Positions 59,287-63,977 of a stretch of 64,000 nucleotides of DNA are shown piece by piece. The stretch's first letter is position 1; every line of letters begins with the position of its first letter. The notes under the pieces were generated by a model. The model did not search any database. It saw only the letters and a program-made list of their open reading frames with translations, and was not told the origin of the DNA. Origin of the DNA: Bacteroidaceae bacterium (lineage in GTDB: Bacteria > Bacteroidota > Bacteroidia > Bacteroidales > Bacteroidaceae); contig JAFZZI010000011.1 in the NCBI GenBank assembly GCA_017615835.1, positions 62,001 through 126,000 of the forward strand. The letters are read 5' to 3'. The position numbers and the translations under genes are program-made.

Positions 59287-60648
59287 ATGTCAGAAATTAT
59301 CCGATTGCGAAAAGGACTTGACATTCGGTTGCTTGGAAACCCGGAACCAAAGACGTTACAGACTGGCGCTGCAGACAGTTATGCGCTATGCCCTGACGAT
59401 TTTACCGGCGTTAAGCCTAAAGTGGTTGTAAAAGAGCAGCAGAAAGTCAAGGCAGGGGAGGCTCTGTTCATAGACAAGAACCATCCTGAAGTTAAGTTCG
59501 TTTCTCCGGTAAGCGGAACTGTCGCCGCTGTCAACAGAGGAGACCGCCGAAAAGTCATGTCTGTGTCAGTGACACCTGACGCAACTCAGGAGTATGTTGA
59601 GTTCGGCGTAAAAAGTGTACAGTCTCTTTCAGGCCGTGAGGTTTTGTCTGCGCTGCTCGACTCGGGTCTGTTCGGTTTCTTCCGCCAACGTCCATACGAT
59701 GTCATAGCTTCTCCTGAGGATACTCCGAGAGGCATTTTCGTTTCTGCTTTTGATTCAAAACCGCTTGCTCCCGATTTTGAATATGTACTGAAGGGTAACG
59801 AACTGGATTTCCAGACAGGTCTCAGTGCTCTTTCCAAAATTGCCCACACTACGCTCGGCATCAGCGCATCGCAGACTTCTGATGCTCTTGTCTATGCCAA
59901 GAACGTTGATGTTTATGCTTTCAAGGGAGCTCACCCGGCTGGCAATGTTGGAGTTCAGATTAACCACATAAAACCAGTAAACAAGGGCGAAATTGTATGG
60001 ACCATCGATCCTGAGACTGTCATCTTCATCGGTCGTCTCTTTAACAATGGCCGCGTTGACATGACACGCCTCATCGCAGTTGCCGGTTCTGAGGTCAATG
60101 ATCCTTCATACAGCAAGGTTGTAATTGGTGCAAAACTGAGTTCCATACTGAAGGGTCGTGTCGCCAACCTTGCCACTGACAGAATCATAAACGGTAATGT
60201 CCTAACAGGAACCCGGAGTAGTCTTGAAGGATATCTCGGTGCTTTCTCAAACATGGTCACTGTGATTCCTGAAGGCAGCAATGTCAATGAGTTTATGGGC
60301 TGGATAATGCCTCGCTTCGGTACATACAGTGTAAGCCGCACGTTTTTCTCCTGGCTTTCAGGTATTTTTTGCCCAAATAAGAAATATGTGATCGACTCCC
60401 GCATCAAAGGCAGTGAACGTCACATGATAATGTCTGGTGAATATGACCGTGTGTTCCCCATGGACATATATCCGGAGTATCTGATTAAAGCCATCATTAC
60501 AGGCAATATCGATAAGATGGAGGCGTACGGAATTTATGAAGTGGCTCCTGAAGATTTTGCCTTGTGCGAATTTGTCGATTCTTCAAAACTTGAGTTACAG
60601 CGCATTGTCCGTGAGGGACTTGACAATCTGCGTGCTGAGATGGCATAA
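59287..60648 (+). CDS. nqrA: Na+-NQR subunit A
   Basis: Cytosolic subunit of the Na+-translocating NADH:quinone reductase, 453 residues. It starts with RLRKGLDIRLLGNPEPK and has the RnfC/NqrA barrel-sandwich pattern (SPVSGTVAAVNRGDRRKV) near residue 75. It takes part in quinone binding. It is the first gene of nqrABCDEF, and the operon order is the usual one. The protein is full length. Confidence 0.96.
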   Translation: MSEIIRLRKGLDIRLLGNPEPKTLQTGAADSYALCPDDFTGVKPKVVVKEQQKVKAGEALFIDKNHPEVKFVSPVSGTVAAVNRGDRRKVMSVSVTPDATQEYVEFGVKSVQSLSGREVLSALLDSGLFGFFRQRPYDVIASPEDTPRGIFVSAFDSKPLAPDFEYVLKGNELDFQTGLSALSKIAHTTLGISASQTSDALVYAKNVDVYAFKGAHPAGNVGVQINHIKPVNKGEIVWTIDPETVIFIGRLFNNGRVDMTRLIAVAGSEVNDPSYSKVVIGAKLSSILKGRVANLATDRIINGNVLTGTRSSLEGYLGAFSNMVTVIPEGSNVNEFMGWIMPRFGTYSVSRTFFSWLSGIFCPNKKYVIDSRIKGSERHMIMSGEYDRVFPMDIYPEYLIKAIITGNIDKMEAYGIYEVAPEDFALCEFVDSSKLELQRIVREGLDNLRAEMA

Positions 60649-60666: not shown

Positions 60667-61824
60667 ATGAATTTAAGAAATTGGCTTGACTCTATCAGAC
60701 CCAACTTCGACGAAGGCGGCAAACTGCACGCATTCCGTTCGGTCTACGAAGGATTTGAATCCTTCCTTTACGTTCCTAATGCCACATCAAAGTGCGGAAC
60801 CAACATTCACGATGCATTTGACAGCAAGCGAATGATGATCATGGTAGTAATCGCTCTTTGCCCCGCCATGCTTTTTGGTATGTATAACGTTGGTTATCAA
60901 CACTATATAGCCGCAAATCTTGAGGTGTCTTTCTGGCCTGTGTTCGGTTACGGTTTCCTTGCAGTCCTACCACGCATTATTGTATCATACTTAGTCGGAC
61001 TTGCCATAGAATTCACCGTTGCACAGTGGAAACATGAGGAGATCCAGGAGGGATATCTTGTTTCCGGATTCATCATTCCGATGATAGTTCCGGCTACCTG
61101 TCCTCTATGGATATTGGCGATTGCAGTAGCATTCTCAGTAATAATAGCCAAGGAGATATTCGGGGGTACCGGGATGAACTTCCTTAATGTGGCTCTTATA
61201 ACGCGTGCGTTCATCTTCTTTGCGTACCCTTCGGTAATTACCGGCGAGACGGTCTGGGTAGTTGACCACGCAATCTGCGGTCTTGGTGCAAATATTGACG
61301 GTTTGACTGCTGCCACCGCTCTGGGCACGGCATCTACGACAGCCGCCGTTCCCGCATTCTCAATGAATATGGTCTGGGGCTTCATTCCGGGTTCGGTAGG
61401 TGAGACCAGCGTGATTGCCATTGCACTAGGCGCCCTGCTGCTTCTCTATACCGGAATTGCAAGTTGGAAGACAATGCTCTCAGTCTTCGCAGGCGGTATC
61501 CTGATGGCTCTAGTTTTCAACACATGGGGTCCTGACAATGCAATGGCTCAGATGCCATGGTATGAGCATATATGTCTGGGTGGTTTCTGCTTCGGTGCCG
61601 TTTTTATGGCTACTGACCCTGTCACATCGGCACGTACAGAGGCCGGCAAGTGGATCTACGGTCTGCTTATCGGTGTCATGGCAATCACAATCCGCGTCAT
61701 GAATCCCGGTTACCCCGAAGGTATGATGCTTGCCATCCTTCTCATGAACTGCTTCGCTCCTCTCATTGACTGGTGCGTTGTACAGCGTAACGTCAACAAA
61801 CGTGCAAAAAGAATAAACAAATAA
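60667..61824 (+). CDS. nqrB: Na+-NQR subunit B
   Basis: Membrane subunit of 385 residues with about ten helices, carrying riboflavin and a covalent FMN. The flavinylation motif DGLTAATALG places the acceptor near T217. Together with NqrD and NqrE it forms the Na+ path. It lies 18 bases after nqrA behind an unusually strong Shine-Dalgarno site, perhaps so that B is made in the right amount relative to A. It ends 5 bases before nqrC. Confidence 0.97.
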   Translation: MNLRNWLDSIRPNFDEGGKLHAFRSVYEGFESFLYVPNATSKCGTNIHDAFDSKRMMIMVVIALCPAMLFGMYNVGYQHYIAANLEVSFWPVFGYGFLAVLPRIIVSYLVGLAIEFTVAQWKHEEIQEGYLVSGFIIPMIVPATCPLWILAIAVAFSVIIAKEIFGGTGMNFLNVALITRAFIFFAYPSVITGETVWVVDHAICGLGANIDGLTAATALGTASTTAAVPAFSMNMVWGFIPGSVGETSVIAIALGALLLLYTGIASWKTMLSVFAGGILMALVFNTWGPDNAMAQMPWYEHICLGGFCFGAVFMATDPVTSARTEAGKWIYGLLIGVMAITIRVMNPGYPEGMMLAILLMNCFAPLIDWCVVQRNVNKRAKRINK

Positions 61825-61829
61825 GGATT

Positions 61830-62720
61830 ATGGCTACGAAGAAATTCAAATGTACAGTTTGTGGCTATGTCCACGAAGGCGACACCGCTCCCAAGGAGTG
61901 TCCCGTCTGCAAAGCACCCGTCGAAAAGTTTGAAGAGATTGTCGAGGCGGTTCCTGAAAAAAAGAAAGGTCTTAATACTAACAGCAACGTTTACACCATT
62001 CTCTATGCAGCAGTAATGGTTGTTATAGTTGCTTTTCTGCTGGTGTTTGTTTCGCAGACACTCAAGGAACGTCAGACTGCAAATGTTATCAATGATACCA
62101 GGCAGCAGATTCTGTCGGCCCTCAATATGAGGGATCAGGCCGATGTTGCCGCTACATACGACAAGATTATTACAGCTGATGCACTGATGCAGCCCAACGG
62201 CAAGCTCGTGGCTTATGAAGGAGAATTCAATACCTCTTACAAGAGTGAGTTCGACAATGGTAATTTCCACGTATTTGTTGCTGATGTTGACGGTGAACGC
62301 AAGTTTGTCATCCCGATGAACGGACTTGGTCTGTGGGGTACAATCTGGGGCTATATTGCACTCAATGAGGATCGCACAACTGTTTATGGCGTATATTTTT
62401 CACACTCATCAGAGACTCCTGGTCTGGGAGGTGAGATTGCCGGAACCAAGTTCCAGGACCGCTTTCCTGGCAAGTTGGTTGTTGACGGTGATGAAATTGC
62501 CCTCAAGGTTCTCAAGTACGGCAAGGCTGACAAGAGTTCTCAGTATGAGATTGACGGTGTTACAGGTGCTACAATCACATCGACAGGTGTGAACACCATG
62601 ATTAATAAGGTGCTTACGGCATACATCCCGTTCCTGACAAAACAGTGTTGCAAGGAAGGCGGCTGCGAGGAGGGCAGTGAAGAGTGCTGCGAGGTGCATA
62701 ATGTTGAATCTAACAAATGA
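61830..62720 (+). CDS. nqrC: NqrC fused to an N-terminal rubredoxin domain
   Basis: NQR subunit C of 296 residues with extra parts at both ends. Residues 1-40 form a rubrerythrin-type rubredoxin with four cysteines (C8, C11, C24 and C27; KCTVCGYVHEG, CPVCKAP), which should bind one iron. The usual NqrC follows: one membrane helix (about 54-76) and the FMN domain with the covalent FMN site DGVTGATITS (T248). The C-terminus adds a Cys-rich tail (C273, C274, C279, C286, C287 and H290). There is no internal ATG near the NqrC start (LNTNSNVYT), and the frame is open throughout, so the fusion is real. By the usual NqrC topology the rubredoxin is cytosolic and the tail periplasmic. Confidence 0.93.
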   Translation: MATKKFKCTVCGYVHEGDTAPKECPVCKAPVEKFEEIVEAVPEKKKGLNTNSNVYTILYAAVMVVIVAFLLVFVSQTLKERQTANVINDTRQQILSALNMRDQADVAATYDKIITADALMQPNGKLVAYEGEFNTSYKSEFDNGNFHVFVADVDGERKFVIPMNGLGLWGTIWGYIALNEDRTTVYGVYFSHSSETPGLGGEIAGTKFQDRFPGKLVVDGDEIALKVLKYGKADKSSQYEIDGVTGATITSTGVNTMINKVLTAYIPFLTKQCCKEGGCEEGSEECCEVHNVESNK

Positions 62721-62729
62721 TTAAGGAAT

Positions 62730-63350
62730 ATGGCAAACAAGAATAACGAGGCTCTCAAGCAGCCTATGTGGGTTAACAACCCCGTTTTGGTCCAGATTCT
62801 TGGTATCTGCTCAGCACTTGCTGTTACCGCTCAATTGAAGCCGGCTATCGTGATGGGTCTTTCCGTTACTATCATTGTTGCTATGGCCAACGTGATTATA
62901 TCACTGTTGCGCAAGACCATTCCCAACCGTATCCGTATTATCATACAGTTGGTTGTGGTTGCTGCTCTGGTTACCATAGTAAGTGAGATACTTAAGGCTT
63001 TTGCATACGATGTGAGCGTTCAACTGTCAGTGTATGTAGGTCTTATCATTACCAACTGTATCCTTATGGGTCGTCTGGAGGCTTTCGCCATGCAGAACGG
63101 TCCTTGGGCATCTTTCTTGGATGGTATAGGTAACGGCCTTGGTTATGCCGCAATACTGATTGTGGTTGCTTTTGTACGTGAACTCTTCGGAAGCGGAACT
63201 CTGTTCGGGTTCCAGGTCGTACCTCAAAGTTGGTACGAGGCAGGCTATCTGAACAACGGACTTATGATAATGCCTCCCATGGCACTTGTGCTGGTAGGTT
63301 GCGTCATCTGGTTCCATCGTGCCAAGAACAAGGATTTACAGGAAAACTAA
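62730..63350 (+). CDS. nqrD: Na+-NQR subunit D
   Basis: Membrane subunit of 206 residues with six helices, one half of the D/E pair that holds an iron centre between its membrane-embedded cysteines and forms part of the Na+ path. The early CSALAVTAQLKPAIVMG and ITNCILMGR segments contain the conserved cysteines. It lies 9 bases after nqrC. Confidence 0.97.
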   Translation: MANKNNEALKQPMWVNNPVLVQILGICSALAVTAQLKPAIVMGLSVTIIVAMANVIISLLRKTIPNRIRIIIQLVVVAALVTIVSEILKAFAYDVSVQLSVYVGLIITNCILMGRLEAFAMQNGPWASFLDGIGNGLGYAAILIVVAFVRELFGSGTLFGFQVVPQSWYEAGYLNNGLMIMPPMALVLVGCVIWFHRAKNKDLQEN

Positions 63351-63368: not shown

Positions 63369-63977
63369 ATGGAACATTTTTTCAGTCTATTCGTAAGGTC
63401 AATCTTCGTTGACAACATGGTGTTCGCCTTCTTCTTGGGTATGTGCTCTTTCCTGGCCGTATCCAAGAATGTCAAGACGGCTTTGGGTCTTGGAGTTGCC
63501 GTTATATTCGTGCAGTTCATCACACTTCCTGTAAACTATTTGCTTCAGACAAAGGTTCTGGATCCCATGGGTCTTGAATTCCTGAGTTTCATACTTTTCA
63601 TAGCAGTTATTGCTGGTATCGTTCAGTTGGTTGAGATGATTGTAGAGAAGTCCTCTCCGTCACTCTACAACTCTCTGGGTATATTTCTGCCGTTGATTGC
63701 AGTAAACTGCGCTATTATGGGCGGTTCATTATTCATGCAGCAGCGCATAGGTATGGATCCCGACAACACGCAAGCTATCACTTGCTTTGGTGATTCATTC
63801 GCTTTCGCTCTTGGCTCAGGTATCGGCTGGGCTCTGGCAATCGTTTGTCTGGCTGCCATCCGTGAAAAGATGGAGTATTGCGATATTCCCAAGCCTCTGA
63901 AAGGAGTGGGCATTACATTCATTACCGTAGGCCTGATGGCTATGGCTTTCATGTGCTTCTCAGGTCTGTCAATTTAA
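63369..63977 (+). CDS. nqrE: Na+-NQR subunit E
   Basis: Membrane subunit of 202 residues, an inverted-topology homologue of NqrD. It contains [16 protein letters not shown] and [12 protein letters not shown], with the conserved cysteines. It lies 18 bases after nqrD and 13 bases before nqrF. Confidence 0.97.

Follow-up and report, generated by a model that had tools for sequence, protein, structure and literature searches.

An N-terminal rubredoxin domain fused to NqrC is a recurrent and apparently undescribed variant of the Na+-pumping NADH dehydrogenase in Bacteroidales

NQR is the sodium-pumping NADH dehydrogenase of Prevotella, and its cofactor list in the available sections of the papers on it does not include a rubredoxin (PMC6560451, PMC10739449). 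Subunit C of V. cholerae, NqrC (TIGR01938 family), shares the single membrane helix, the FMN_bind domain, the conserved flavinylated Thr and the operon with the NqrC studied here, but its 257-residue chain in PDB 7xk3 has neither an N-terminal rubredoxin nor a Cys-rich tail. Its FMN is attached to Thr225, as stated in the accessible passages of two papers (PMC10739449, PMC9325719). The flavin domain of NqrC from P. distasonis is known as 3LWX (PMC4348036, accessible part), and the crystallised piece begins after the region that holds rubredoxin and helix in fused relatives. Two further systems are close to the fused protein. Reverse rubrerythrin, the closest relative of the fused domain among those compared, also carries its rubredoxin at the N-terminus, but it has a diiron domain where the fused NqrC has a membrane helix and a flavin domain. 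The chain of anaerobes from NADH:rubredoxin oxidoreductase (NROR) via rubredoxin to Roo or rubperoxin shares the route from NADH to oxygen or peroxide that is proposed below. Its carriers are soluble, whereas the rubredoxin of a fused NqrC would be tethered to a sodium pump.

The window, a stretch of 64,000 nucleotides from the genome of a gut-type Bacteroidaceae bacterium, contains nqrC as the third gene of an nqrABCDE(F) operon, in which its neighbours are ordinary NQR subunits. The features are as follows.

59287..60648, + strand: nqrA (profile match)
60667..61824, + strand: nqrB (profile match)
61830..62720, + strand: nqrC with fused N-terminal rubredoxin domain, 296 aa (ORF, profile matches)
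61845..61934, + strand: rubrerythrin-type rubredoxin domain, RUBY_RBDX, residues 6-35 with Cys 8, 11, 24 and 27 (profile and alignments)
61941..61985, + strand: linker of NqrC, about residues 38-52 (alignment)
61989..62054, + strand: single membrane helix of NqrC, about residues 54-75 (hydropathy, alignment to NqrC)
62328..62615, + strand: FMN_bind domain of NqrC, residues 167-262 (Pfam match, alignment)
62646..62717, + strand: Cys-rich C-terminal tail of NqrC with C273, C274, C279, C286 and C287 (sequence)
62730..63350, + strand: nqrD (profile match)
63369..63977, + strand: nqrE (profile match)

The coordinates and the reading frame given for nqrC in the initial annotation were correct. Its ATG at 61830 lies five bases behind the end of nqrB, its stop codon ends at 62720 and nine bases separate it from nqrD. 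Behind nqrE, nqrF is cut by the contig end after 278 residues, which lie partly beyond the window and include a ferredoxin-type Cys motif. The nqrC product belongs to subunit C with 185 bits on TIGR01938 (cut-off 144), and the narrower and better-fitting model NF003750 gave 299 bits, which is below its own cut-off of 352. Residues 48-271 correspond to positions 1-224 of the NqrC model; the rubredoxin part thus directly precedes the usual NqrC start, as had been annotated. Thr248 is the predicted counterpart of the flavinylated Thr225 of V. cholerae NqrC, with which it aligns, and is invariant in the alignment of relatives.

The N-terminal part had been described as a rubrerythrin-type rubredoxin with C8, C11, C24 and C27, and both comparisons agreed with this. 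RUBY_RBDX (Pfam) matched residues 6-35 over all 30 positions and both CxxC motifs with 54.1 bits (cut-off 26.5, E 1e-14), and residues 4-35 align without a gap to residues 153-184 of the solved rubrerythrin 1ryt, in its C-terminal rubredoxin domain. The fused NqrC is not itself a rubrerythrin: a rubrerythrin or ferritin-like diiron domain was absent among its Pfam matches, and the NCBIfam rubrerythrin model matched at the model's rubredoxin end only. Among the domains compared, the rubredoxin of reverse rubrerythrins comes closest to the fused domain, with a mean identity of 0.56 to 20 of these and of 0.46 to seven classical rubrerythrin domains (some rows are duplicates). The nearest neighbour of an NqrC rubredoxin domain was another NqrC domain in 53 of 54 cases. 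The first Cys is followed by Lys in 55 of 76 NqrC domains compared to Thr in 14 of 20 reverse rubrerythrins, and position 28 is Glu in 45 of 76 compared to Lys in 18 of 20.

Within the first 75 codons of the window gene, in-frame ATG, GTG or TTG codons occur only at positions 1, 63 and 72, the latter two inside the helix. Since no start lies between codons 2 and 62, and a start at codon 63 would destroy the anchor, the rubredoxin domain is made whenever the membrane anchor is. A separate start that skips the rubredoxin, the objection raised in the initial annotation, is therefore not available in this gene. The argument is clean for the window gene but not for every locus, as 60 of 74 domain-bearing loci (some of them duplicates) have a potential in-frame start ahead of the helix, in many cases GTG or TTG. 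An artefact or a frameshift joining two genes was rejected, given that the same fusion occurs in many genomes and the window gene has no alternative start. The rubredoxin domain is under purifying selection in its own genus: across 14 fused genes, dN/dS was 0.16 both for this domain and for the FMN domain, and the rubredoxin domain gave 0.14 in the nine closest genes.

The fusion was then found to be common in parts of Bacteroidales, so that it is no rarity, and the oddity of a single genome was rejected as it recurs across the family, order and named-genome samples. NqrC matches were present in 219 of the 251 genomes of the family sample, and at least 68 of these 219 carry an N-terminal domain, which is of the rubredoxin type in 59 and a four-Cys variant (C..CG[QK]T[FY]EA...CPIC or close) in nine. 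Of the 150 matches listed, 68 begin at query residue 5 or before; all 68 have the domain, compared to none of the twelve later-starting ones that were checked by sequence. The order-wide sample gave matches in 166 of 198 genomes, and at least four among the matches listed have the domain (own genome, G105, G041 and G018), most unfused matches being classed by where the match begins. Hidden fusions among these were sought in 16 long or odd frames and rejected: 14 are without the domain by sequence and two (L176, L177) were classed as without. In the phylum sample (395 genomes, 81 matching), the domain was seen among the matches listed in the own genome and G105 only, and no fusion was found outside Bacteroidales among them.

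The best 80 of 592 named relatives, a set that is biased towards the fused query and may leave out the window's own genome, comprise 33 loci with rubredoxin, nine with the variant and 38 with neither; the closest is uncultured Prevotellaceae bacterium RUG450 with an 84% match. All 42 loci that reach the N-terminus (33 and the nine variants) have the four-Cys motif, which was not a criterion for their selection, compared to none of the other 38. According to NCBI, the 33 belong to Bacteroidaceae, Prevotellaceae, Tannerellaceae, Rikenellaceae, Paludibacteraceae and Dysgonomonadaceae, with one unplaced. Within the best 80, fusion was found in 6/6 loci of Parabacteroides, 0/3 of Tannerella, 6/6 of Rikenellaceae and 2/2 of Dysgonomonadaceae. 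Fused strains include P. distasonis An897, P. massiliensis SN4, Segatella paludivivens DSM 17968 and Bacteroides sp. Marseille-P3684 as well as Alistipes, while Bacteroides finegoldii, Phocaeicola plebeius and P. coprocola are unfused, as are nine of ten Bacteroides-named loci. One of the six Parabacteroides loci is labelled P. distasonis, and L004, a fused relative, shares about 89% identity with 3LWX. The search of Bacteroidales NqrC proteins that had been recommended for this gene thus revealed a widespread fusion and not a peculiarity of one genome. It is common in parts of the order and not present in all close relatives, and a published role for it was not found.

The mapping on a tree that had also been suggested was carried out with 164 distinct NqrC cores by a quick method (61 with rubredoxin, nine with the variant and 94 without), leaving out six refetched duplicates, six identical cores and the loci fetched later. 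The tree required 15 changes between presence and absence of the domain, at least 11 of them on well-supported branches. Rooted on distant unfused sequences, this quick tree yields nine gains and six losses at equal costs, six gains and 11 losses when gains cost three times as much, and one gain and 30 losses at five times the cost. The 30-residue domains are compatible with one clade (AU p 0.59). As 30 columns cannot prove one clade and the gains on the core tree depend on the costs, these sequences would fit a single origin of the fusion as well as several. Recent losses are likely, judging from L043 and L138. In L043 (G425, own genus; L043:1015-1737), MATKK leads straight into the helix region, rubredoxin is absent in frame and the tail has one Cys; L138 is unfused inside the variant group on the core tree. 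Three tandem rubredoxins precede the membrane helix in L056:1501-2646 (G289, same family). The 15 state changes and the short form of L043 with its remaining MATKK would suit a nearly neutral passenger domain that is retained for a while after fusion and then lost. This is improbable, however, as dN/dS is 0.14-0.16 in the domain and its four Cys are invariant across families.

Conservation beyond the Cys bears on whether the domain transfers electrons at all. It could be a metal ribbon that binds Zn or Fe for folding only and that steadies NqrC on NqrF or NqrD/E, or recruits a soluble partner. The variants (nine loci of the named set and nine of the family sample) keep the four Cys without the rubredoxin consensus, and one of them (L115) scored 33 bits on RUBY_RBDX and 20 bits on a zinc ribbon, the latter below the cut-off. 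NqrC is moreover described to undergo a switch-like conformational motion in which its helix shifts along with the NqrF helix (PMC10643135, available sections). Most fused proteins, on the other hand, keep GYxHEG, AP and CPxC along with the Cys, and the nearest relatives of the domain sit in redox enzymes. A structural metal site is rather unlikely for the fused proteins as a whole, but it is a serious rival, above all for the variants.

The preferred reading proposes a redox function, in which the N-terminal domain would be a working one-iron rubredoxin that the linker tethers to the NqrC helix at its cytoplasmic end. It would take electrons from NqrF (NADH, FAD, 2Fe-2S) and, once oxygen or peroxide is present, may pass them on to soluble rubredoxin-dependent Roo and rubrerythrins. 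NQR would then double as an NADH:rubredoxin reductase and divert electrons from the Na+-pumping route, for which the Cys tail would not be needed. Such a one-electron rubredoxin arm next to NqrF on the cytoplasmic side, which would connect the oxidation of NADH with O2/H2O2 reductases, is suggested tentatively from the sequence. It is possible but somewhat more doubtful that across much of Bacteroidales this arm provides NQR with a second electron exit, from NqrF via the NqrC rubredoxin to enzymes that reduce oxygen and peroxide.

The position of the domain is derived from the V. cholerae complex, as described in the accessible parts of two papers. Its NqrC helix makes close contacts with NqrD (helix 3) and with NqrF (helix 1) (PMC9325719), and the ferredoxin domain of NqrF is flexibly linked and moves, while the helices of NqrC and NqrF shift together (PMC10643135). 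The placement of the two Cys sites of the window protein on opposite sides of the membrane, proposed in the initial annotation, fits the sequence and these structures, and by analogy the window NqrC would adopt the same topology. A rubredoxin at the cytoplasmic end of its helix would sit beside NqrF, since the helices of NqrC and NqrF touch in V. cholerae. The potentials of rubredoxins are about 0 mV and higher in rubrerythrin. Electron flow from NqrF would thus be downhill and the reverse uphill. For the same reason, it is distinctly unlikely that the domain serves as input or relay to the NqrD/E cluster, bridging the way from NqrF or feeding in electrons from a soluble rubredoxin or another donor; at such positive potentials the domain would hardly be able to drive electrons into the complex, and V. 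cholerae NQR functions without the domain. An input would be in line with the long gap between NqrF and the NqrD/E cluster, for which domain motion is needed (PMC9325719, PMC10643135), and with the NqrC helix lying against TMH1 of NqrF and TMH3 of NqrD (PMC9325719), as far as the available sections describe them.

Electron exit through the rubredoxin is favoured by its predicted position beside NqrF, by the potentials, by the gene content of the own genome and by one neighbouring gene in another. The own genome (assembly 82% complete) has a rubrerythrin, a reverse rubrerythrin, a separate rubredoxin and a Roo-type match, and no match for cytochrome bd was found in it. Its sole match to the classical rubredoxin family (G000:C20:61463-61603) lies about 0.4 kb upstream of the window start. 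In a Dysgonomonadaceae locus (L113), a rubrerythrin is encoded upstream of nqrA with a gap of about 240 bases, which is the only rubrerythrin beside nqr among 80 named loci, many of them short. As read from the sequence, this locus (L113:4534-11885) also has two additional reading frames within its nqr operon, one of ~420 aa that separates nqrC from nqrD and a nitroreductase-like one that separates nqrE from nqrF. Two adjacent rubrerythrin-type rubredoxin matches, one in a 67-residue frame, were observed elsewhere in G041:C7:72322-72598.

Gene content was compared in 48 genomes picked by hand with several per genus, 24 with and 24 without the domain. The former comprise 22 of the rubredoxin type and two with the variant (G354, G326), all checked by sequence; the latter were classed by sequence (14) or by match start and frame length (10). 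Roo-type matches were not associated with the fusion (21/24 with the domain, G018 having weak matches only, compared to 22/24 without). Cytochrome bd did not differ clearly either with 11/24 compared to 16/24, and in one genus (g158) it was present in 5/5 fused and 0/4 unfused genomes, which is the reverse of compensation. The Rubredoxin_C marker of NADH:rubredoxin reductases was absent in all 48 genomes, fused or not, and in a Bacteroides control. As B. thetaiotaomicron reportedly has an NROR, this marker is uninformative either way. Genomes of the unfused genus g163 have two rubrerythrin-type domains in all 16 listed, compared to three to four in 12 of 15 of the fused genus g172, which suits the fused domain being an extra one; replacement of a lost rubrerythrin by the fusion was therefore unsupported. 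Gene content thus gives no support to the proposed electron exit. The link to rubrerythrin-like oxygen defence that had been suggested at the outset is plausible from the class of the domain, the own genome and L113, but it found no association in these comparisons. Three further points count against electron exit: the Bacteroides genomes examined are mostly unfused (9/10 loci) and the arm therefore cannot be a general donor, the domain was lost repeatedly and is thus dispensable, and variants that keep the four Cys have lost GYxHEG, which suits a structural metal site.

The C-terminal tail was present as annotated, with five Cys and one His (C273, C274, C279, C286, C287 and H290). Five Cys in 24 residues are expected by chance with about 1.5e-5 at the Cys frequency of the window, and among the 50 ORFs retained for the window, nqrC alone reaches five Cys within a stretch of 24 residues. 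In the own genus, a tail with three to eight Cys occurs in 10 of 15 loci only, and its His is not conserved throughout. A search of the own genome with the coding pattern of the first ten tail residues, which is blind to other Cys tails, gave a single hit in nqrC itself. Some relatives have much longer tails, namely CADCTKECKDGKK repeats with 14-17 Cys in L058 and L059, 37 Cys in L103:7998-9308 (Red_deer_3_mag_10) and 44 Cys in L130:8001-9317 (RUG367). The tails of L103 and L130 are metallothionein-like in make-up without a family match. Further Cys-rich tails in the fetched stretches were observed in L224 (G333) with 10 and in L255 (G305) and L256 (G430) with 18 Cys each, one of the three being a GQCGQGQC repeat.

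Tails of this kind could point to metal handling, in which both ends of the protein, the N-terminal domain as well as the Cys tail, would serve to buffer or sense metals and redox transfer would be secondary. This is very improbable, although tails of 14-44 Cys exist and that of L103 is in frame with nqrD next. No metallothionein profile matched the window NqrC or the scanned relatives with 8, 14, 37 and 44 Cys, and tails with at least three Cys are likewise present in proteins that lack the N-terminal domain (L112, L138, L185, L258, L259, L261 and L262). An association of tail and rubredoxin was not found on independent pairs, few of which are informative (on average 1.2 of 11 in the same direction, 0.1 in the opposite one and 9.7 without difference). 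The two parts would also lie on opposite sides of the membrane, as the tail is predicted to be periplasmic by the accepted topology, in agreement with the location of NqrC in the available text of PMC10643135. The Cys tail is a separate, patchy and lineage-specific feature, for which a metal-binding or thiol role is a guess.

A report of an NqrC-rubredoxin fusion was not found among 5.39 million open papers, a collection that leaves most subscription papers and supplements outside its scope; the statement in the initial annotation that no description was known holds to this extent for the fusion and for a role of it. In the available parts of the papers examined, which deal with NQR, RNF, FMN-binding proteins or a genome that has NQR-like genes, the word rubredoxin was absent save for one paper on a free rubredoxin, and the accessible passages on 3LWX in papers discussing this structure do not use it. 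The fused NqrC is thus real and makes a variant of a known complex that is conserved, recurs and apparently has not been described, although domain databases may already list the architecture. It is ordinary within its lineage and surprising to an NQR specialist.

The rubredoxin on NqrC may give a well-studied respiratory complex a branch point for electrons that has gone unreported. Should the domain be redox active, a cofactor is missing from the models of NQR for many species of the gut, among them very probably the Parabacteroides of the crystallised NqrC domain. If electron exit by this route is true, the same complex would switch between energy conservation and oxygen defence, and NQR in fused species could be a second electron donor to rubredoxin-dependent reductases. 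The fused NqrC would then, provided that it is redox active, be a testable candidate for an additional donor in the rubredoxin-dependent oxygen defence of anaerobes.
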